Assembly (NCBI GenBank): GCA_034620365.1
Contig: JAQGEQ010000324.1
Location: forward strand, 1 to 64,000
Length of the DNA: 64,000 bases
Source of the DNA: Pegea sp. RAD2-039
Taxonomy: Eukaryota > Chordata > Thaliacea > Salpida > Salpidae
Direction: 5' to 3'
Under the pieces are notes generated by a model, which saw only the letters and a list, made by a program, of their open reading frames with translations, ran no database searches and had not been told where the DNA came from. A program made the position numbers and the translations under genes. How positions within the stretch are numbered: position 1 is the first letter of the stretch; each line of letters begins with the position of its first letter. Shown in pieces: positions 14,941 to 30,960 of the stretch.

Positions 14941-15639
14941 TTAATAATCTAGCCAATTACTTTTGAGTGTATCAGCAAAAGTATTCAACTTCACCCGTCC
15001 TTCTTTATCAACAACGAGCCAAGTCACTGAATCACTAATTGATTCAAGATAATCTGCGCATTCGTCGGGTAATTGTAGAATTTTTTGCACAATAAAAGAA
15101 ATGGTTTTTTGAGAGCAAAAATATATTTCTTTTTCATCTCTATCACCTGTATTTCGACAAATATGCTCAGTGAAAAAATTGTTCAGAGCTGCTCTATTTA
15201 TCATGACTTGGTCATAAAGAAGCGGTTTTGTAAATCTAAAGTCTCCACTGCCAAGATTTGTTTCAACAACTGGGTTAGTTAGGTCATCATGTCTAACAGT
15301 GTTTACCAATCTTTCATCACATACCATCAACTTTGTAAAATTAGAAAAATTTAATCCATAAGACGTAGTCAATAAATGGGAAACATCGCTTATATTCTTG
15401 CTAAAAGGTGTAGAAACTAGAAAAATATCTTTCCTTGCTTGATTGGCACCAGTATCTTCTAGATAATCCCAGTTATTGTTCCAATTATCTTCAGTTGATG
15501 CGTAGTTATTGTTCATTATGTCCAATCTTGCGTATACTTTAGTTGGAATTCTGATTATTCTCTTTAAATCAGTCTTTTGCATCACTGCAATAGATGCACA
15601 AACCAAAGTAACTTTTGAAATTTTTACTAATAGGCTCAT
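14941..15639 (-). CDS. PGAM5-like pseudo-phosphatase 1 (catalytic His lost)
   Basis: Intronless 232-residue protein related to PGAM5, the mitochondrial membrane-anchored Ser/Thr phosphatase of the histidine-phosphatase (phosphoglycerate mutase) superfamily. A hydrophobic N-terminal stretch (about residues 3-20) could be the membrane anchor. WNNNWD at 53-58 matches the WDxNWD multimerisation motif of PGAM5. The first core strand reads DIFLVST (71-77), where PGAM5 has an Arg-His pair: S76/T77 stand in for it. The second catalytic site, FCSQK, has S176 in place of the second His. The C-terminal block EGRVKLNTFADT resembles GRVALRTLGDT. Lying first in a three-gene same-strand array, it is probably catalytically dead; a scaffold or regulatory role is inference. 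Start chosen at the first Met of the open frame, directly before the hydrophobic stretch. Confidence 0.72.
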   Translation of the reverse strand: MSLLVKISKVTLVCASIAVMQKTDLKRIIRIPTKVYARLDIMNNNYASTEDNWNNNWDYLEDTGANQARKDIFLVSTPFSKNISDVSHLLTTSYGLNFSNFTKLMVCDERLVNTVRHDDLTNPVVETNLGSGDFRFTKPLLYDQVMINRAALNNFFTEHICRNTGDRDEKEIYFCSQKTISFIVQKILQLPDECADYLESISDSVTWLVVDKEGRVKLNTFADTLKSNWLDY

Positions 15640-16111
15640 TTTAGTTATTTCCTGAATTTAAAATACGATATAAGTTTAGATGTACTACTTAAACATAAAA
15701 AAGCAGCAAACAGCTATTTTAAGTAAATTAAATGAATTATAGTAGAGTTGAAATAAACAAAAAACGAAAATTGTTGGGATTTAAAGTATATGAACAATTT
15801 TAAACAGTTATTAGCTAAGCCAGTTCATTTAGATTGCACATTAATATGATGCAGATAAATCGTGAATAAAAATTTGGTGATGATTTTTCTTTTGTTGATA
15901 CTTAGAATATAACTAAAAAAATAGTCACAGAAAATTTCTCGTTGGAATAACAAAAAAACAAGACACCTCTAATTTTCCAGTTGAATTCACAGTGATCTTA
16001 AAATATTCAAAAAAATGGCAGTTGAAATAAAAACTTCTTATAAAAACTTTTTTACTACAGCAAAGTCAGCTTTTCAGTAAACTTTATAAAAATTAAAAAG
16101 GTAATTTTACT
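15640..16111. other. spacer between PGAM5-like genes 1 and 2
   Basis: About 470 bases of AT-rich sequence. It should contain the promoter of gene 1 and the 3' end of gene 2. No other feature is visible. Confidence 0.5.
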
Positions 16112-16783
16112 CTAAGAGCAAGCATGCAAAAAAGCATCACTATTAAACATCTTAAGCTGAGGAACATTATCCTTGGTTACAGTGATCCATGTCATACCAC
16201 ATCCTGAACTGTCTAAATAATTACATCTTTCAGGGGGGGCTTTTAAAGTACGCATGACAATATATGAGATAATTTTGGAGCTACATATAAAAAGCTCAAA
16301 GTCTTTTCCACCTTTTAGAATAAGTTCAACTTCAGATTGAATCCTTGAAATGTCTTTGCTTATATCTTTACTTTTAGAGTAACTTTGAGGTATAGTATTT
16401 TGGTCTACTACTCCATCTTTTAAACCTTCTCTTACGACCACTTCCATGCTTTGTTCTGGGTTTTCGTCTAAAAATTGTCTGTTTATAATTTTCCAGGTTT
16501 GCTGGGCAGTTCGTGAGCTTGATATGTTAGCTTGATCTATCGCATTTGTAACATTTTTATCAAGTAGGTAGTTAGCAACAGCTTTTGCTTGATTAATTCC
16601 AATATCATCTAAATTTCCTCTAGAGTTAGACGCCCCATTACTAATAAAAATTAAATTTCGAACTCGAGAATTTTTGCTTTTTTCGGCGTGAACTTTTTGG
16701 TGCTTTTTTATCAAGCAAAGTCCACAAGTCGAAAAAACGACCATTTTGGATACTAAACTCATTTTGAATGCTGCAAGACTCAC
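16112..16783 (-). CDS. PGAM5-like pseudo-phosphatase 2 (catalytic His lost)
   Basis: Intronless, 223 residues, second member of the array. Residues 10-25 are hydrophobic and may anchor the protein. The core starts RNLIFISNG (42-50): S48-N49 replace the Arg-His of active PGAM5. It keeps the helix LDDIGINQAKAVANYLL, equivalent to the LTxxGxxQA helix of the family, better than its two neighbours do, and ISSSRTAQQT resembles the SSMTRAIET segment. The second catalytic His is replaced by S168 (FICSSKIISYIV), in a block otherwise very like PGAM5 (FICHANVIRYIV). The WxxxW motif is not present. Divergence from its neighbours is high, so the duplication is not recent, yet the frame is intact, which argues for a selected function. 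Confidence 0.72.
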   Translation of the reverse strand: MSLAAFKMSLVSKMVVFSTCGLCLIKKHQKVHAEKSKNSRVRNLIFISNGASNSRGNLDDIGINQAKAVANYLLDKNVTNAIDQANISSSRTAQQTWKIINRQFLDENPEQSMEVVVREGLKDGVVDQNTIPQSYSKSKDISKDISRIQSEVELILKGGKDFELFICSSKIISYIVMRTLKAPPERCNYLDSSGCGMTWITVTKDNVPQLKMFNSDAFLHACS

Positions 16784-17031
16784 AAAAAATTACACTGGCC
16801 TTCAAAAAACAAAACAGCATTACTTTTAAGATTGAGATAAGAATAGACTATAAAAAGTAATCTATCAACTTTAACATTTATGAATTAAGACATATAATTT
16901 GAAACCACAAATAAATTTTCGAAATAAAATATTTTAAAATAGAATTAAAATAGATGAAGATAGAATCAATCATAAGACGCTCATGAAACAAATTATACAG
17001 ATAATAAAATAAGAAAATATTGACTTTTAGT

Positions 17032-17772
17032 TTATTGAAATGTTTTATCTCCAATTGAACTTACTGCAACTGTCCCATCTTTAAAAGTACTCAAAGTAGT
17101 AATGCTACAATCTCCTATAGTTAAATTTTTATAAGAAGAGGTTGGTATTTGCAATAATTTGCAGAGAAAATAGGATATTAATTTATAATCACATACAATC
17201 AAAAAGTATTTATTTGTGTTTTGATTAAATTCAGGTTTCTTGAAAATATCTACAAACGCATGTTCAGCCTTAGCATGGCCAATTATAGAACTTTTATCTA
17301 CAAGTTCACACTGTTCTTCTTCAAGTTGTTTTGCTTCTGAAGGACTAATAATAGGATGTTGAACATCTAAGTATGTACACGGGATACACTTAATTCTATC
17401 AGTAAAGTTGCTGTTCAGTTCTCGCACCGTAAATAATGATGTACAGTCTGAACTTGCAACAAAACTATGAATTTTTTTATCTATATCTTTACTTTTCAAA
17501 TATTTTCCTATATTAGCTATTGCAGTTTTTCTTTCTGGTTTTATCGAAAGCTTTCCACTACCCTTACATACTACGGTTTCAGCTGTGCTAATCAAAATGT
17601 ATTTGTTACAACAATTTGAACCATTTTCACGAGGTGAAGATCCATTCCAACTGAGATCGAATTCTGCAAACGCTTTTTGAGGTTTTAAAAAATTGTGAAA
17701 ATCAAAATACTTGCTGAAAACACCTAAGCCGCCAGCGGTAGCAAACGCTGCAGTTCTTATAAGAAGTCTCAT
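17032..17772 (-). CDS. PGAM5-like pseudo-phosphatase 3 (catalytic His lost)
   Basis: Intronless, 246 residues, third member of the array, 248 bases upstream of gene 2. The N-terminus (TAAFATAGGLGVFS, residues 7-20) resembles the small hydrophobic anchor of PGAM5. In YILISTAET, S62-T63 replace the catalytic Arg-His, and in LIVCDYKLISYFL, D195 replaces the second His. The end, NLTIGDCSITTL and GTVAVSSIGDKTF, aligns well with LSLNNGSITHL and GRVALRTLGDTGF of PGAM5. The family assignment comes from these blocks; the middle is poorly conserved. Only one Trp (W42) remains near the multimerisation site. Mitochondrial or other membrane location is inferred from the family. Confidence 0.7.
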   Translation of the reverse strand: MRLLIRTAAFATAGGLGVFSKYFDFHNFLKPQKAFAEFDLSWNGSSPRENGSNCCNKYILISTAETVVCKGSGKLSIKPERKTAIANIGKYLKSKDIDKKIHSFVASSDCTSLFTVRELNSNFTDRIKCIPCTYLDVQHPIISPSEAKQLEEEQCELVDKSSIIGHAKAEHAFVDIFKKPEFNQNTNKYFLIVCDYKLISYFLCKLLQIPTSSYKNLTIGDCSITTLSTFKDGTVAVSSIGDKTFQ

Positions 17773-20177: not shown

Positions 20178-21229
20178 TTATATTGCGATTTCGCTCGTCG
20201 TTGAGGTTATTTCTTTGATTTTTAACCAGTCTTTTTCCAAAAGCTGACTAGTAGTAGGGCGATCTATACTTTTAACTCTTAGTATACTATTCAAAATTAC
20301 TTTGGCATCATCACAGACAGAAGATTTGTTGGGATAACGTAGAGGCTTTTTCTGGTCCTGGGAAAGACTTGAAACACTGAGATCTCGAAAAGGCATAATT
20401 GCTGTTAACATTATAAATAAAATTACTCCAATGCTCCATATATCTGCACTGATTCCTATATATGGTCTGCCCTGCTCATTCAAAACAAAATATTTTCCAT
20501 ATAGATTATAAAACATATATATTTTACGTATAAGTAAAAAAATTATTAAAATGAGCATTGTTACAACCCGTAGTATAATTGAACTAGCTTTTGTGGCAAC
20601 TTTTTGTTTTATTTTAAGCTATTAACAGTTAAAGCTACTTTTAAGCATTTTTCACTTACTTTTATTATTTCTGGAGCTGCATAAGCCATACTTCCACAGA
20701 AAGTTTTACTCAAATCACAATTATACATTCTTCTAGCAAAACCAAAATCTGCAATTTTCAGTGTATTTGCTTGGTTGAGTAATATGTTTTCACATTTCAA
20801 ATCTCTGTGAACAATATTCATTTCATGGATATATTGTAAGCCCTCTACTATTTGTCTAAACATTTTCGCACATTTTTGGCCTTTGACTGGACCTCGGCAA
20901 CGAATAAATTGTAATAGATCTCCATGTGCTGCATACTCTAAGATCAAATAAATCTTTTTTTGCCCATGAAAAATATCCAAGGTTCTTATAACATTATCAT
21001 GATCTAAATCTTTTACTACTGCTAGTTCTCTGGGTAGAAATTTTTCCTTAAAATCTTTTGGAATGTCAACAGAATTTATTATTTTTACAGCAACTTGTTT
21101 ACTTGTTTCTTTTCCAGGCTGTTTCCAAATAGCACTTTTTACTGTTGCATAACTTCCAAACCCTAATTTGGCACCAATTTCATACCCTCGTTGTTTTAGT
21201 TCGTTTGATTCACTACTTAAACTGTGCAT
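20178..21229 (-). CDS. testis-specific serine kinase (TSSK)-like protein kinase
   Basis: Two exons: 21229-20660 and 20471-20178, phase 0 junction, 287 residues. Complete Ser/Thr kinase domain: glycine loop GFGSYATV (23-30), VAVKI with catalytic K49, E68, HRDLKCEN (141-148), DFGFAR (161-166), activation segment SKTFCGSMAYAAPE (T176), then ADIWSIGVILFI in exon 2. HRDLKCEN and SKTFCGS.AYAAPE are typical of the TSSK branch of the CAMK group, which phosphorylates sperm and late-spermatid proteins in vertebrates. The length fits the short TSSK1/2/3/6 type. All catalytic residues are present, so it should be active. It is transcribed away from the lectin-like gene starting at 21870, with 640 bases between the start codons. 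Confidence 0.88.
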
Positions 21230-21869: not shown

Positions 21870-23942
21870 ATGAATTTTTTTAGAGATGTTTGGGTCTTCT
21901 ACTTTGTTATTTCATCTTTTTCGGTTAGCATTTATTCACTTGAAGGCATGAGTAAGTTTTTAGTTAAATTTGAGATTGTTATCAGTAAAAAAATAATTTT
22001 GTTTTAAAAGTTAGAATTACTAACATTTTTCTTCAGTTGAGAAGTTAATATATAAAAAATAATCACAGCTTGTTCTTAACTTCAAAAAGTGTAACTTGAT
22101 TTAATAATTTATAGATTCTTTTAAATCTTAATAAATTAATAGATAATTACAAGTTGTAATATGTGATTCATAAATAAATAACAAACAGTAAATGCAACCT
22201 TTATAGCGTATTGTATAATTCTATACAATTTTTTATAAACTCAATAAAAACTGATTAATTCTTTCAGCATAAGTTCTAAGCAGATTTGCATGCATAAAAG
22301 ATGTGTACTATAAACAATTTATTCAACTTTATATCATAACTTATAAAATTGACAAACTCTAAAAAATTGTATCCGTCAACAGAATATCAACTTTGATTTA
22401 TGATATCATTGGTTCAGATACAAGCTATGACTAACACAAAAAATAAAAAAAATATGTTTATAAAAAATCAAAGCTGCGATCTTTTTCTATCAGATAAGTT
22501 TAAATATTGTTGGGTAGTAGTAAAACACATGTTTTTATCAGAGCAAGCATCAATTTCTGTGGCCATTAAAACGTATCTGAAAAGCTCGAATACTTCTAAT
22601 AATCAAATTTCTTTTTTATTTATTTGTTTGTTTGAAAAATAATTTTTAAATTTAAGTTCTTTTTCTAGATTGGATTGAAAATTCTTTTAAGGAATATTTC
22701 ATATCGGATTTCACCGCAACAAAGCACGAAGCATTATCATTTTGTAACATTTCTAAAGCCTATTTACCAAGATTTCGAAATATCGACGAATATTCATTTA
22801 TTGAGTATTTGTTAAAAAGTATTTTTGGCACAGAAGGTAGTTTCGAAGTTTGAACAAGTTTCTACAGTGATTACTAAAGTTGCTATTTTATTTTTTTTAT
22901 ACTTCATCTTTTATCAATTTTTTATCATAAAATATTTTCAGAAAATACAAAAATCTACTTGGACCTTGAGTTAATAAACAATAGCTTTTATTGGAGTGAT
23001 AAATCCAAACTTCATACTTTCGCGCACTTTAATAAAAGTACAAATTTGACCGATGCTAAAAACCCCTGTGTCATTGTATCTAACAACGATATTTGGACAC
23101 CTAGTAATTGTACTACAAGTCTTTATTTTGTATGTGAAAGAAATGTTGGTAAGTGATATCAGTAAACTAGAGTTTAGTTTTTCACTTTTTATAAACTTTT
23201 TACCAGGCTCACTTTGGACCGCCTGGGACTCCTGGTCATATTGTTCTGAGCCGTGTGGCCATGGAGCTCAAAAAAGACATCGATTTTGTATTGAAGCTTC
23301 TTCAGCAGGACGACAAAAGTGTAAAATTGGTGATTATCATTTCCAGGTATCCTTTAATCACTCTAAAAAAGAAATTGTAGATTTTGCATGAAATTAATTA
23401 TTTTGTTTTATTTTTCTCTGTACTTAATCTATTACTTTGCAATCCTAAAAAAATATTTTTGTAGACAAAGGTCTGTGAAATAAAGAATAGAGCTAGCTGT
23501 AAACATAAAGGTAAGATAACTAATTCTAAGAATATTCTGTTTCAACAAAATTCTTCAATCAATTGTAGCAAAAAAAGGATGAATGAATTATATGCTGTTA
23601 ATATTAAGTTTAGACGTCTATTTAATCTTTTATCTGAAGTTTTATGTTCTTTTTATACACTTTTTAGAAGTAGCAAAAGATAAGACTTGGGGTTACATTA
23701 TAATCGCAATTGCTGGCTTCTATGTGGTTATCGTTCTTCTAATTGTGTGGTATCGACGAAAGCAAAAGTAAAACAAATATATTTGAGATAACATTTTAGG
23801 CAGAAATATTTTTTGTGTATAAAGTAAACACGAAACTTAAATTTGATTCTTTTTTAGGAAAAAGTTTCTTCAAAAAGCGATGCTTTTAAGAGAGATGTGT
23901 TACTCTTCCAGAGATGAAATTAGAAATTCAGGTTCTCATTAA
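21870..23942 (+). CDS. C-type-lectin-like / TSP1 single-pass membrane protein
   Basis: Exons 21870-21951, 22669-22836, 22942-23148, 23207-23346, 23465-23510, 23668-23767, 23858-23942; phases agree, 275 residues. Exon 1 encodes a signal peptide (VWVFYFVISSFSVSIYS). Residues 28-152 form a C-type-lectin-like domain: HEALSFCNISKAYLPRF, the spacing to NPCVIVSNNDIW, and SLYFVCERN at the end. Calcium-binding EPN/QPD and WND triplets are not evident, so it may bind protein rather than sugar. Residues 155-214 hold one TSP1 repeat (WDSWSYCSEPCGHGAQKRHRFC). A transmembrane helix at 224-242 is followed by WYRRKQK and a 33-residue tail. Several N-x-S/T sites lie outside. Domain borders coincide with exon borders. 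A receptor or adhesion role is inferred from the architecture; I know no named orthologue. Confidence 0.82.
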
Positions 23943-24187
23943 ACTATTCATTCCCAGCAAATAATATTTTCATTTATCAAGATACCTTAATTCATTTATA
24001 TTTAAGATCAGGGGCTTTTTATACATAATTTAATTATCTTTTCATTACCAAATTAGAAACATTCAGAATATCAAAAGATAATGAAAATATTCATGTTTTG
24101 CAAAACCTTGACCTGATTAACTCCTGAATGAAATGATATCTTACACAATTTTCAAATAAGGCCTCAAATAAATGTCTAGAGTAGCTT

Positions 24188-25263
24188 TTAGTGACTAATA
24201 ATGAAATATGTCTTATGTTTTAACGCTAAAACTGAAAAATCCGATATCTTATTTTGTTGATGGTTTAAATCTTCATCAAGAAAGTCATCAAGATCCTCAT
24301 CAACTTCAACAGCTTCTTTACTTTCAAGAACTTTAGAATCATTTCTTGGTAGCCATTTCTAAATAAAGATCTCTCTACCTTTCATTAAGACAATTAATCT
24401 TAATTCAATTACTTTTTTCTGACTTCCATTTTGCTCTATTTCTTTTAAAAGGTTTCTTTTTTCTACGCCATAAAAGAAGCGATAGCTGCACTTTCGCTAT
24501 AAAATAAGATCGAAAAAATATCCTTACTAAATATAACAACTACCTTAAAGTACTTTTTATATACTAATATTCTATTCATTAATTCATTTTGTTTAGCTTA
24601 AGATAGAATTATTTTAGAAGCAAATAATGTGATATAAATAATATAACAATTTTTAAGTCAGTACTTTTTGTGAAAGAAAGTTTAATCAAGCATCTATAAG
24701 CAGTTACTTTTATTTATCTGTAGTTTATGGGCATTCAAGCATTTTGTCTATTATATTTTAACTTATAGTTATTAATCAAATTTGTCAATTTAATAATTGA
24801 TTTATTAAACGAGCTAAGTTTAATTCTTGTTAAAAACAAATGACAATCGTCAACATCAACCTTGACTTTATATCTTCTACAGTAATATAAAAGCTTTGGA
24901 TTTGAATAGCAGGCTCGTACATCAGGAGGTACATGACATTTAAACCATATTCTTAGTGGTCAGAAAACGCTACTAGTAATAAGACGTAATCTTAAAAGAA
25001 AACAATAATCGATTTATTTATATAACCTCAAAGAAATATGATAACATTTGTCGAGAGATAAACTTTGTTGTTCTATAATTCAGTAATTTCAATAAAGTTA
25101 GATAAGGATTTTAAAAACTGTTCTGCTTCTTTTTCTTCTTTCCTTTCCTTGTTTTTTTTTCTTCAGCCTTATACTTAACTTCATCTTTCCTTTCATTTAT
25201 AAGCTTTTGAACAGCATAAATGATGTTAAAAATCATTACTTTGCCGAGTCTCCCTTGAATCAT
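24188..25263 (-). pseudogene. RWDD1-like gene remnant
   Basis: Three minus-strand segments look coding. At 25263-25150 the frame reads LGKVMIFNIIYAVQKLINE...EEKK, like the end of the RWD domain and start of the coiled coil in RWDD1 (LGMVMIFTLVSAVQEKLNE). It then loses frame in a run of nine A; the continuing homology (EKEAEQF) is in a shifted frame. At 24496-24413 an exon with good splice sites ends LLKEIEQNGSQKK, joining in phase to 24358-24188, which encodes NDSKVLESKEAVEVDEDLDDFL and then a stop, resembling the acidic C-terminus of RWDD1 (VEVDESLFQEMDDL). The N-terminal RWD exons are not found; LINE pieces lie where they should be. RWDD1 is a partner of DRG GTPases. It could instead be another acidic-tailed gene, and the two 3' exons could still be live. 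Confidence 0.36.
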
Positions 25264-25309
25264 TGAAATTATGTAGATGTAAAATAATCAAATCTTTGGT
25301 TTAAGTATC

Positions 25310-25395
25310 AATTTATTTATTTATTTATTACAATAAATGTGAAGGAGGGTGCCTAAAGAGAGCACCTCTCTCTAACACACATTCTCACAAATTAG
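25310..25395 (-). mobile_element. 3'-end fragment of LINE family A
   Basis: Only the last ~80 bases of the element: AATTTGTGAGAATGTGTGTT on the minus strand, the hairpin with AGAGAGAGGTGCTC and GGCACCCTCC arms, and the ATTGTAATAAATAAATAAAT tail. It matches the ends at 28320-28390 and 19770-19845. Confidence 0.75.
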
Positions 25396-25477
25396 ATGAT
25401 CCTAAAATTCAGATGATAGATTCCCCCCAATAAATTCAGATGATCCTAAAATGAAAATAAATTTGCTGTCATCAATG

Positions 25478-26200
25478 CAGAAGACTTCGAAAAGTTAGAT
25501 TTATGTTTGCTGCGTCTTGTATACTTAAAGGATTTAATTCTGCTAAAAAATATGTTGATCAACTAAAGTTTAATATTTACCATAAGGTGATTTTTATTTT
25601 TATTCAAACAGTTATAATCTATCAATATTAAACTTTCTGTAAAAAATTGCTCGTTTTAACTATTATTGAATTGAACTTCTAACTTTAGATTAAATTATTG
25701 TATTACTACTTAAACTTATTAATAGTATTTGTCATTTTAACTTTATAGAATACCTTAAAGATCGCAATCTCCTATTCATACTCGGAGGCTCTTCATTCAA
25801 AGTTAAACCGCTCAACAGCTTTAAGAGCACCCTGCGGAGTAACAGCTTTTTTAACAGGGTAACTAAGGTTTAGAATTCCTTTCCCGATTCCATCACTACA
25901 TTGAAATCTATCAAACGTTTTAAAATTTTGCTAAAAATAAGATTTAAATAGTTTCCTTATCAAAGGATATGTAATACCGCCAGTTTCCTCACTTTATTCT
26001 TATATTTTGTCGCATCAAATTTTTGATTCATAATTTACGTTTTATGCTTCTACAGTGTTTATATTCTTTTTATATAAATCTTAAATTGTGATACCTAAGA
26101 CCTTTCAACTATCTGTTTGCTTGTAATTTTGGTTTTTGTTCGCTGTAAGAGCTGTTAAATTTGTAACTTGCAGCCACGCATTAATTTAATAAATAAATAG
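25478..26200 (+). mobile_element. decayed LINE fragment, family B (reverse transcriptase C-terminus)
   Basis: Plus-strand reading gives RRLRKVRFMFAASCILKGFN at 25478, then, after a gap, LRSNSFFNRVTKV-stop-NSFPDSI at about 25835-25890. The block matches the usual C-terminal signature of non-LTR reverse transcriptases (FF.NRVV..WN.LP), with the Trp codon changed to TAG at 25871-25873. The tail at 26165-26200 (AGCCACGCATTAATTTAATA plus AAATAAAT) is shared with the copy in CCDC81 intron 3. It differs from LINE family A in sequence. Confidence 0.6.
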
Positions 26201-26369
26201 ATGAAAATTCGCTATCGACAGTTGATTCTAGTAAATAAAATCATCTATAAAAATATTCGTTTCTTAAATTTAATTATACCGCTGAAACTGCGCTAGATGT
26301 TATTATTACTTCTAATTAAACTTGATTATAAATATTTATTAGATGAGTTCAATAAGAGTTCTGTTACAA

Positions 26370-27747
26370 TTATGTCAAAGGTCTTATAATACACTCATTG
26401 AAAGTCTGACAGACTTCTGTTTCTACAGTAGGTCTACAGAATGAGTCATTGCAAAGAAAAATGCGTGTTCGTGTACTAATTAATGGGCGACACACTGCTG
26501 AACATCTGCTCCAAGAAGACCAACCACTTTTGCCACCAGATGAATTTGGAGGAATTACTGGTAATAAACCACAAAACTCTGACTCTTTTAATGGTACACT
26601 ACAATTAGAAGGTTGAGGTATACACTTTCGAAAACGATATCTGTAATCATATTTACAAGTAGACCATGGATACCAGTTCGTGACGTCATATTCCAGTTGA
26701 TAATCCCAATTATCTGCTTCACATTCTTCAACTTGTTTTCGAGCAGGTACAGAGTATTCTATAATACTGGATCTTTCTCTAATTCCAAAACCAATTGTAA
26801 CACTGCAACTGGACCACGAGCCCCATACTGGTGTCTGGGACGTACATCCTTGGTAACTGATACATTCTTCTACTTCTTTAAGATTACGATCACATGAACC
26901 ACCACCAACCCAACACTTCTTATATCGTGACCGGATACCAGTTCCACATGAGTTTGAACAGCCAGACCATGGAAGCCAGCTAGTTTCAACATAGTTAGGA
27001 ATAAATTTGTTAAAAGGAGGACAAAGGGGATGGAGTATATGGCAGAGTGCAAATTGTCTGTCATAGTAAGACCCTATAGCTGGAGGCTTCATCAAACATA
27101 AACGGGTTCGGTTCTTCAGCCCGATTTCGGAGGAAAGAGCTGAGCAGCTCGACCATTGTGACCACTTATTACATCGAAAATACGAATAGAGTCTTTTTAC
27201 AAAATCAGTTGGTTCGCACGAAATGCTGTCTGAACAAACTATTTTTTCTTCTAAGGCTATATTACATTTGCTGCCATCTGGTATACATGAACGAAAACGG
27301 TATTTGGTCCCAATGCCGCAAGATTTTGAACAAGTGGACCACTGGAACCAGTTTGTTACAGTGAAGTTACAAACATTAAGATCGTCTGTAAGAAAATGTC
27401 AAAGATTCTTTTTAACAGTTTTTTGTAGTCAACTAACTTCAATTTTGTAAAAAAAAAAGGATTCACCAACAACCTAAATTATTCATACATTTACTAGAAG
27501 AACGAATTAATATCTATTTTTCATCCTATAAATGGCTTTGTCTTATAATTTGAAAATTGAAGTATATTTTATTAAATAAATTTCTGAACAAAAGCTTGAA
27601 GTTTATATTTTTTAACTAAAATAATTTTTCACAATGATTTTTTTTTTAAACAAAAAATAACTTTTAAAGAAAATAAACTAAAAATATTTCACCTGCAGTA
27701 ACTGTGGTTGCCAGGACCACCAATATAGTGAAGAAACTTCTTTTCAT
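26370..27747 (-). CDS. secreted protein with six thrombospondin type 1-like repeats
   Basis: Two exons: 27747-27693 encodes a signal peptide (MKRSFFTILVVLATTVTA); 27385-26370 encodes all the rest. Phases agree, 356 residues, no transmembrane segment. TSP1-like repeats start at NWFQWSTCSKSCGIG, NKWSQWSSCSALSS, SWLPWSGCSNSCGTG, VWGSWSSCSVTIG, NWYPWSTCKYD and SGWSSWSRCSAVC. Repeats 1, 3 and 6 keep the WxxWxxC core with the following Cys; 2, 4 and 5 have lost Cys residues. WxxW motifs are C-mannosylation sites in known TSP1 repeats. Extracellular-matrix or cell-surface binding is expected from the family; no protease or other domain is present, so it is not an ADAMTS. All repeats share one exon, unlike the TSP1 gene 2.4 kb away on the other strand. 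Confidence 0.85.
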
Positions 27748-28309: not shown

Positions 28310-30960
28310 ACTTTATTCATTTATTACAATAAATGCGAAAGAGGGTGCCTGAAAAGAGCACCTCTCGCTAACACACATTATCACAAATAATATCTATTAA
28401 GTTAGAAATACAGAAAGCAAAAGATGTCATGGCATTTCAGTAGTCCTCAAAGCATATAAAGGGGAACAATTACATATAATTATATTAATATTAAGAAAAG
28501 GAAAAATTCAGTGTTTAGAAATGGCAATGTCGACAATTTCTTCTTGAACAACGCGAGTGATTCTGACATGACAATGTCTGATGGCAGCTGGTTCCAAGTA
28601 CTAAATTGTGCAGTATGAGAAAAAATTTAATCTGATTAATGTACCGGGTGATATAGGCTTATTAAGATGTTATGTGTGTCGTCTGAGCTGATATAACTTG
28701 AGGGAAGGATTAATGGAAAAGAAATCATCAAACTGAATGTCAATTAAATTGTGGATAATTTTAAAAATAAGAATTAAGTCGTATTTAATCCGTCGAATTT
28801 CCAAACTATCTAAATTGAAGAAACTGAGACGATGTTTATAACTATTATATTTAATATTAAGTTTCCTGCATACTAATCTCGTAAATGTGGCCTGAACAGA
28901 TTCGATTTTTTTGATATCACTAACTTGATATGGCATCTATGCACTGACATTGTATTCAAGAATTGAACGTATGTACAACTTGAAAAGATTGATAAAAAAG
29001 CATGGGTCCTTAGAATTAAAGGTTTTTATAATAAGGTAGACAAGGTTGATTGATTTTCCAAAGATTTTGGAAACATAATTATGCCATTTAAAGTAAGATG
29101 ACAATGTAATGGAAAGGTCTAGGACCGAAGATATTTGTTGAATGATAAATCTATTGATGGAGTATTGGTTCAAGGAATTTGCAGCTGGTTTACGAGAAAA
29201 GGTTATAAGTTTTTTTTTATTGGTTTACTTTGTTAGCTGGATTCTGAGCTGCCAATTCGTAGATCAGTTTTCTACAGTGTGTAGTGCAATTTGAAGTTTT
29301 GAAGGATTGCAAGATAATAGCTTGATGTCATCTGCATATACAAACACACTGACATCATCTACTGCTACTAGTTTTCTGATGAGGTCTTCAATGAAAATTA
29401 AAAATAGAAGGGGACCCAGAACGGAACCCTGAGGAACACTACTGGTGATTTGACTAGAAGTAGATAAAGATCTTTCTACACGAGTTTGTTGGGTTCTACC
29501 TGATAAGTAATCTTCAATCCAATGTTAGATGAAGCTGTTGATTTTTAGGTTTTTCAATACAGTAATGAGCTTGTTGTGTGGGACAGAATGAAACGCTTTA
29601 GCAAAATCGAGGTAGATGATGTCGCAAGGAGTATTACTTTCATAATGGGCTGTAAGCTAGTAGGATGTTGAGTCAGGGATGATCTCCGTTTCACAAAGCC
29701 ATGCTGGACATTGGATATTAGATGGTGCTCCATCAAATGACTGGTCATATGATTGTGAATGATATGTTCTTCAGTTCTGCAAAGAACTGAAGTCCTCAAA
29801 ACTGGTCTCTAGTTAAGTGCAGTGTTTCTGGGACCCTTTTTATGAATTGGAGTAATAATAGCTTTCTTCCAAATTTTTGGAACTCTTTCTCGCTCAAGAG
29901 TCATGTTAAAGAGTAGCGATAAAGAGGAAGTAGTTTTTCTTAAAACCAAACTGGGATCTGATCTAGGGTGTTGAAAACTGATGATTTTAAAGAAGATATA
30001 TTAAGATTAAGAAGATACTATATCGACCGTTATGTCAAAATTTATCATCTCAGAAACATTTGTAAGAATGTCGAATTAGGAAAGAGAAGGTGTATTGCCA
30101 TCATCGGTTATAAAAACGCTATTCAATTGATTGTTTAGCAATTCAGCTTTATTCTCTGGTTTCATCACAAGCTGGTCGCTGTTATCAAGTAAGGGAGGTA
30201 TTTGAGATCTCGCTATAAGCTTGTGATCTATGAAACCAAAAAACGTTTTCTTGGTAGGTGAAGATAAGACTGCACTTTCTCTTCCTAAATAGAAATTAGA
30301 AATAGATTTCTTGTAAACTATACAAATATCTTTATACAGAGATTTGATGGAAGGGTCTCCTTTATTTTGTTTGTATAGGAGGTTTTTCAAATGATTTAAA
30401 TTCCTTAAATCTCTGGGCAAATGTGGCTTTCTGTTGACTCTATAAAAAGGTATGAATTTTTCGATTGACTCTTTAACGATGTTAGTAAGCCTTAAGTAAA
30501 TAGTATTGATGTCTTCGGTAGAGTTGAAAACAGAAATCCAGTCAGCTGATAAAAATTTGATAATACCATTACAATTTCCACGGTAAAAATTTCGTTTGCT
30601 TGAAGTTTTAACGTTCATAAAAAAAAAGTTTGATGGAGCTTGAATTCAATCATGTTGTGATCGCATGTCGGAGCAAAAGGTTCTTTTTGATCAACGTAGA
30701 TAATGTTCTCGGGTTTTGATGTGATAATAAGATCCAAAGTATTACCACTAACTTGGGTCGGAAAGGTAACCATCTGAGACAGATTGTTGACATTGAGGAA
30801 GCTTACAAAGGCATGGCTTAGAATGGCTGAATTAGTATTGTCGCTATCCAAGTTATTTTCCAATAAATGCTAAATTCGGGTTATTCCAATCAATTTTACT
30901 AAAAGATAAATCTATTAAAAATCACGAAGATATATTTTGTTGCTGTTGAAGAAGGGATCT
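28310..30960 (-). mobile_element. 5'-truncated, decayed LINE (CR1/L2/Jockey-like), family A
   Basis: Minus-strand non-LTR retrotransposon with broken frames. In element order: end of an apurinic-type endonuclease (FSKIDWNNPN near 30910, then GNTLDLIITSKPENI and CDHNMIEFKL near 30720-30660); a linker open frame 30618-30076 (NRKPHLPRDLRNLNHLKNLL, KKTFFGFIDHKL); reverse transcriptase 30070-29200 with the YADD box at about 29341-29324; and the C-terminal region (YIRSILEYNVSA, SDIKKIESVQATFTRLVC, LSFFNLDSLEIRRIKYDL) down to 28670. The element ends in a conserved hairpin (28335-28372) and an A/T-rich short-repeat tail. Several frameshifts and stops show it cannot move itself. The 5' half of ORF2 and all of ORF1 are missing. 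Confidence 0.88.

Follow-up and report, generated by a model that had tools for sequence, protein, structure and literature searches.

A single-exon family of PGAM5 paralogues in an animal genome, including predicted pseudophosphatases, several of which retain a ring-assembly motif

PGAM5 is a mitochondrial Ser/Thr/His phosphatase and the closest described relative of the genes reported here. Its catalytic residues are named as R104, H105, R152, E177 and H230 in passages of PMC5501728. According to these passages, PGAM5 assembles into a dodecamer through its WDPNWD motif, which acts in trans to order the catalytic loop, and the N-terminal extension around this motif is largely disordered in the human structure. 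The alpha-3 and F244 regions appear as ring interfaces in passages of both PMC5501728 and PMC6355839, the latter of which adds that human R214 bonds D63 of the motif. Mutants separate assembly from catalysis: as far as the relevant passages of PMC6355839 go, the H105A protein is catalytically dead and yet forms rings and clusters mitochondria, and the motif mutant AAxxAA and the F244E mutant give neither rings nor mitochondrial clustering.

PGAM5-like reading frames in the window

The window, i.e. the whole 64 kb stretch of DNA that was analysed, carries three frames with PGAM5-like features, each counted from its first ATG:

14941..15639, minus strand: w1, PGAM5-like predicted pseudoenzyme of 232 amino acids
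16112..16762, minus strand: w2, PGAM5-like predicted pseudoenzyme of 216 amino acids
17032..17772, minus strand: w3, PGAM5-like predicted pseudoenzyme of 246 amino acids

An earlier note on this DNA had described three same-strand open frames of 223-246 codons; the frames are indeed intact and share the minus strand, but their actual lengths are those listed here. Thirty 64 kb sequences were simulated under a second-order window model; none of them had a stop-free run of at least 200 codons, the longest being 143. The GC content by codon position (0.40/0.33/0.25 in w1, 0.41/0.35/0.26 in w2 and 0.38/0.38/0.20 in w3) has a coding-like slope, the comparison being with the intact paralogue C25 only, whose values (0.45/0.37/0.23) are similar.

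In single-sequence searches against the PDB, w3 matched human PGAM5 best (E 7.4e-7), and the best match of both w1 (E 1.1e-5) and w2 (E 1.2e-4) was 3eoz, with human PGAM5 at 3.9e-5 and 0.0053, respectively; all these matches cover mainly the C-terminal half. The entry 3eoz is listed as a putative phosphoglycerate mutase and is presumably the Plasmodium PGAM5. A profile of the three proteins together matched 3eoz along most of the length (E 2.1e-13) and human PGAM5 in the C-terminal part (2e-12), and up to E 0.1 it retrieved PGAM5 chains and 3eoz and nothing else. With a 14-sequence family profile, which includes intact copies, the match to PGAM5 rose to 1.3e-47, other members of the superfamily being found at about 5e-6. 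Profile-profile comparison of w1-w3 with the four intact paralogues introduced below gave a probability of 98.8% (E 1.3e-16, profile columns 60-230). In an HMM comparison of the kind suggested earlier, against Pfam His_Phos_1 (cut-off 21.7 bits), w2 (21.2), the nearest of the three to this model, and w3 (16.6) stayed below threshold and w1 gave no match. Judged by these similarities, w1, w2 and w3 are diverged PGAM5 homologues, closer to PGAM5 than to other histidine phosphatases, and the PGAM5 ancestry claimed in the earlier note is supported by the PDB matches and by the profile match to the intact paralogues.

The gene content of the window points to an animal as its source; the idea of a rotifer spliced leader was considered and dropped, passages of PMC1925144 reporting none in a monogonont. 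Adjoining the array, at 20178-21229, lies a protein-kinase gene, apparently spread over two minus-strand frames of which one has a Pkinase match, and which we take to be TSSK-like. One or more thrombospondin type-1 repeat genes occupy 22878-27398, where one frame has three TSP_1 stretches and another a single TSP_1, the latter adjoining what by eye is a C-type-lectin-like exon. Fragments of a non-LTR retrotransposon lie at 28670-30869, with an RVT_1 match at 29267-29524; similar frames were seen by eye near the family members on contigs C11 and C19 described below, and at C71 (slices L044, L046 and L050).

The genome-wide family and its catalytic residues

The family was surveyed by whole-genome searches with single-protein queries and with PF00300, supplemented by the reading frames around the matches; all counts are lower bounds. 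At least 15 PGAM5-like single-frame genes were found on 9 contigs of this 106 Mb animal genome, and the last whole-genome family searches yielded no copy beyond these 15. Each consists of one open frame of 201-265 amino acids. We refer to copies that lack at least one catalytic His as dead and to the others as intact:

C59, the contig of the window: three copies (w1, w2 and w3)
C25, 394316-395080: intact copy
C39, 37036-37830: intact copy
C11, 640252-640998: intact copy
C246, from 249467 and from 250509: two copies, C246a intact and C246b dead
C19, from 402798: dead copy
C6, 2300243-2300941 and 2301719-2302444: two dead copies
C21, from 2291798, 2295464 and 2296486: three dead copies (C21x, C21y and C21z)
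C262, from 1757053: dead copy

With at least 15 members, 11 of them dead, the family of pseudophosphatases postulated from the window thus extends across the genome. The match of intact C25 to human PGAM5 (E 9.9e-43) begins at the RHG strand and reaches the C-terminus, and the dead copies have only 12-25% identity to C25 and 10-27% among themselves. Ten non-window members were scanned with His_Phos_1, and the cut-off was passed by five, namely the four intact copies and dead C19. The whole assembly gave no match to COX1 at E up to 0.001, and the mitochondrial genome may be missing from it. About 0.4 kb from the C25 gene there is a frame of the Janus/Ocnus family (C25:393439-393891, i.e. L042:3940-4392), presumably a phosphohistidine phosphatase like PHPT1; two kinds of protein-histidine phosphatase would then adjoin at this locus.

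The four intact copies (C25, C39, C11 and C246a) have R104, H105, R152, E177 and H230 (human numbering) in both alignments. Both catalytic His are missing from 9 of the 11 dead copies, the exceptions being C246b, which retains the second His only, and C21x, which retains the first only. Retention per column is low: R104, H105 and H230 (R67, H68 and H196 in C25) are each kept in 1/11 dead copies, and Y71 of C25 in 0/11. The columns of R152 (R118 in C25) and E177 (E145) are kept in 3/11 and 4/11, both values being alignment-dependent; because the assignment of these two residues differs between the alignments, only for the RH pair and for the second His do we claim a loss.

In the window, the two 15-row alignments bear out the substitutions reported earlier. 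The site of the first motif reads LVSTPF in w1, FISNGA in w2 and LISTAE in w3, so that Arg-His is replaced by ST, SN and ST, and the site of the second His reads CSQ, CSS and CDY, i.e. S, S and D. For the Arg-His site, Placement of this motif is least certain in w1, where both 15-row alignments give ST, and a three-row alignment and the profile comparison shift the segment, an RH pair being absent from this position in every alignment made. An RH dipeptide does occur further downstream in w1 (TVRHDD), by eye aligned past the R152 helix. By their sequences w1-w3 are predicted to be pseudophosphatases, in that the catalytic residues are gone and selection is suggested by the open frames, the codon pattern and the retention of Trp residues discussed below. 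That another chemistry was kept or gained in the same pocket would agree with the half-lost state of some members (the second His in C246b, the first in C21x) and with the score of dead C19 above the Pfam cut-off (28 versus 21.7 bits), but in w1-w3 neither His is left and the Arg that precedes the first is gone too, and we consider this reading scarcely credible.

Constraint and origin

Intronless copies that have lost their catalytic residues could in principle be decaying retro-pseudogenes that have stayed open by luck. To quantify this, the C25 gene was evolved neutrally, by substitutions only, to 35% or 25% protein identity in 300 runs per set. The simulated genes acquired on average 14.2 (35%) and 16.6 (25%) stops and were open in 0/300 runs of either set, against 11/11 real dead copies, in line with the earlier observation that the frames are open despite strong divergence. 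The two Trp residues of the assembly motif were kept in 19% (35% set) and 13% (25% set) under drift versus 17/22 in the real dead copies. The codon-position GC pattern likewise speaks against decay, and so do codons 1-26 of C21x and C21y, a pair outside the window (dN 0.11, dS 0.42). Decay is therefore a very improbable account, and the best reading of the sequences is that the dead copies have been under selection, which would have held their frames open through very long divergence.

The start of this C21 pair is peculiar in itself: a tract of 93 bp in the region of the start codon and the first 26 codons (C21:2291786-2291877 and C21:2295451-2295543, slices L054 and L048) has 85% DNA identity, despite a whole-protein identity of 27%. 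Gene conversion or a specially constrained targeting segment is proposed as its cause.

Clusters of genes with strong divergence are typical of fast-evolving germline or immune families, and the copies considered here are clustered on C59 (three), C21 (three), C6 (two) and C246 (two) and are strongly divergent; moreover, a protein-kinase frame adjoins the array of the window. Novelty itself might then be what is selected, PGAM5-type assembly being incidental, but gene neighbourhood is weak evidence, and we regard this explanation as unlikely.

The intron-containing active PGAM5 that the earlier note had proposed to look for was not encountered: the whole-genome family searches gave no exon-split PGAM5 (the split matches seen, on C71, C9 and C3, were to other histidine phosphatases), and the four intact copies are all single-frame. 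Because all copies are single-frame and the searches revealed no parent with introns, retrocopying, if any, has to be placed at the base of the entire family. The lack of introns throughout suggests that the family goes back to one retrocopied PGAM5 that displaced its parent and whose descendants then dispersed and duplicated in tandem. Fragments of non-LTR reverse transcriptase lie inside the window and, by eye, near some other copies, so that a retrocopying machinery is at hand. The copies are too old for poly-A or target-site-duplication hallmarks to be expected. As to DNA similarity by which the duplications might be dated, none was seen at E up to 1e-6 between the locus slices that were compared (for the C21x gene, those of C21y and C21z only), and self-comparison within the window array gave chance-level matches only, the best, at E 0.04, being a palindrome.

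The family tree is mostly unresolved, with 1 of 12 inner branches starred. Grouping of w1, w2 and w3 has weak support (45/73), that of w1 with w2 being 85/74, so that one insertion with later tandem duplication is no more than a candidate origin of the three window genes. The data do not reject a single clade uniting the dead copies (p-AU 0.45). Given this tree, we claim neither a single nor a repeated loss of catalysis.

Retention of the assembly motif and its possible role

Retention in the dead copies was counted, within a single alignment, over the 32 columns in which all four intact copies agree (C25 numbering), excluding Met1, which is kept in 11/11 by construction. The best-kept columns are W49 and F176 (each 10/11), P211 (9/11), and then W45 and K29 (each 7/11); in the human WDPNWD motif, W58 is the equivalent of W45 and W62 that of W49. 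Of the dead copies, 7/11 have a W-x3-W pair in their linker, against an expectation of about 0.9% per linker from random strings of matched composition. As read from the alignment, the Trp motif of ring assembly is preferentially retained across the dead copies, and folding alone is a poor account of this, because the extension around the motif is mostly disordered in the human structure. The retention of F176, in the alpha-3 helix, and of P211, which adjoins the equivalent of human F244, may reflect folding or the protein core rather than assembly.

The window copies differ in this respect. In w1 the motif (WNNNWD) and the alpha-3 FxxxxxR are kept, w3 has the second Trp only (FDLSWN), and w2 lacks a WDxNWD motif, so W-x3-W occurs within the window in w1 only. 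Since only w1 has the whole motif, co-assembly is much less sure for w2 and w3. A basic residue at the alpha-3 partner position, i.e. the counterpart of human R214, occurs in 7/7 dead copies that have the motif-end Asp versus 1/4 without it (Fisher 0.024), a comparison that was made post hoc and with statistics that ignore kinship among the copies; over all 15 copies the figures are 9/10 versus 2/5 (p 0.077), the pattern being broken by intact C11 and C246a. A further point against the assembly reading is that intact C25 aligns E and K with human Y198 and E199, two residues of the alpha-3 interface.

All 15 copies have a 15-residue hydrophobic stretch inside their first 21 residues (mean hydropathy 0.88-1.85); in four (w3, C11, C19 and C6a) an internal stretch of the domain is more hydrophobic than the N-terminal one. 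In 10/15 copies, including w1-w3, residues 25-39 contain an Ala preceded by His or an aromatic residue (for example VYAR, VHAE, AFAE and CYAK; chance about 26% per protein), which possibly marks a candidate processing site after the hydrophobic segment.

The above leads us to favour, with somewhat more than even confidence, a model in which w1-w3 belong to an old single-exon family of PGAM5 paralogues and encode non-catalytic, mitochondria-anchored proteins, the motif-bearing ones of which join PGAM5-type rings or filaments. The N-terminal segment would anchor the dead proteins in mitochondria, as hydropathy and descent suggest, where they would act without phosphatase chemistry. Motif-bearing dead copies, in the window w1, would assemble with catalytically intact paralogues, and the dead subunits of such mixed assemblies might supply their motif to neighbours in trans, lower the share of active sites or shape mitochondrial morphology structurally. 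The motif-less w2 and the half-motif w3 would at most pair via the F244-type dimer interface, thereby capping or limiting assembly. Non-catalytic assembly subunits are the most economical reading, because the active site has been dropped and the motif kept, and H105A still forms rings. The subunits might share rings with the four intact paralogues or form separate ones, a description that would suit w1 well, w3 to some extent and w2 least. The role as scaffold or decoy in PGAM5 oligomers that the earlier note considered is supported by motif retention across the dead copies, but in the window it finds W-x3-W in w1 only. More tentatively, the PGAM5 system of this animal as a whole might be mostly non-enzymatic, dead subunits and the four intact paralogues sharing mixed rings, the ring being the main selected function and w2-like proteins serving as caps.

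It is possible, if rather doubtful, that the selected pseudoenzymes no longer assemble with intact PGAM5, each having a partner or ligand of its own (for instance by binding a phosphoprotein within the former active-site cleft) and the Trp motif serving for homo-oligomers only. The 10-27% identity among dead copies would agree with this, as would the beta3-alpha3 region, which by eye is variable among copies, and the lack of a motif in w2. PGAM5-type assembly is instead indicated by the Trp at the W62 position, which 10/11 dead copies keep, and by retained residues of its pocket region, although these do not distinguish homo- from hetero-rings.

Measured against PGAM5 itself, the model of non-catalytic assembly subunits builds on an N-terminal hydrophobic segment, a WDxNWD-type motif (w1), a histidine-phosphatase domain by sequence and the C-terminal blocks. 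Unlike PGAM5, the window copies lack the equivalents of R104, H105 and H230, with the motif absent from w2 and halved in w3, and they belong to a single-frame family of at least 15 members in one genome. Another parallel is the H105A laboratory mutant (PDB 6CNI and 6CNL), which forms rings and clusters mitochondria according to passages of PMC6355839: the natural copies, too, are predicted to be dead and keep assembly elements, but H105A is a single engineered change, whereas they are at 12-25% identity to intact C25. On the evidence of mutants in mammalian cells, the same passages ascribe catalysis-independent effects to PGAM5 ring assembly, and a natural family that has lost catalysis while keeping the assembly motif would be an evolutionary experiment on such catalysis-free assembly, which makes the point testable.

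Among invertebrates, Drosophila Pgam5-2 (PMC9800997) is, to judge by its number, likewise an additional PGAM5 gene, and the passages of that source are silent on any loss of catalysis or larger family, unlike the case presented here. As the earlier note had surmised, no PGAM5 pseudoenzyme family appears in the titles and abstract openings among the literature matches listed, in which subscription journals are thinly covered, so that absence is unproven. Outside this enzyme family, the trypanosome AdoMetDC prozyme (PMC5201418) and inactive myotubularin-related proteins (PMC3688503) are paralogues without activity that are reported to bind or regulate an active partner; the proteins studied here would resemble both in assembling with an active paralogue, a partnership that in their case we infer. 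Pseudophosphatases and dead regulatory paralogues are therefore already known, and what is new, among the literature matches listed, is the PGAM5 version of them.
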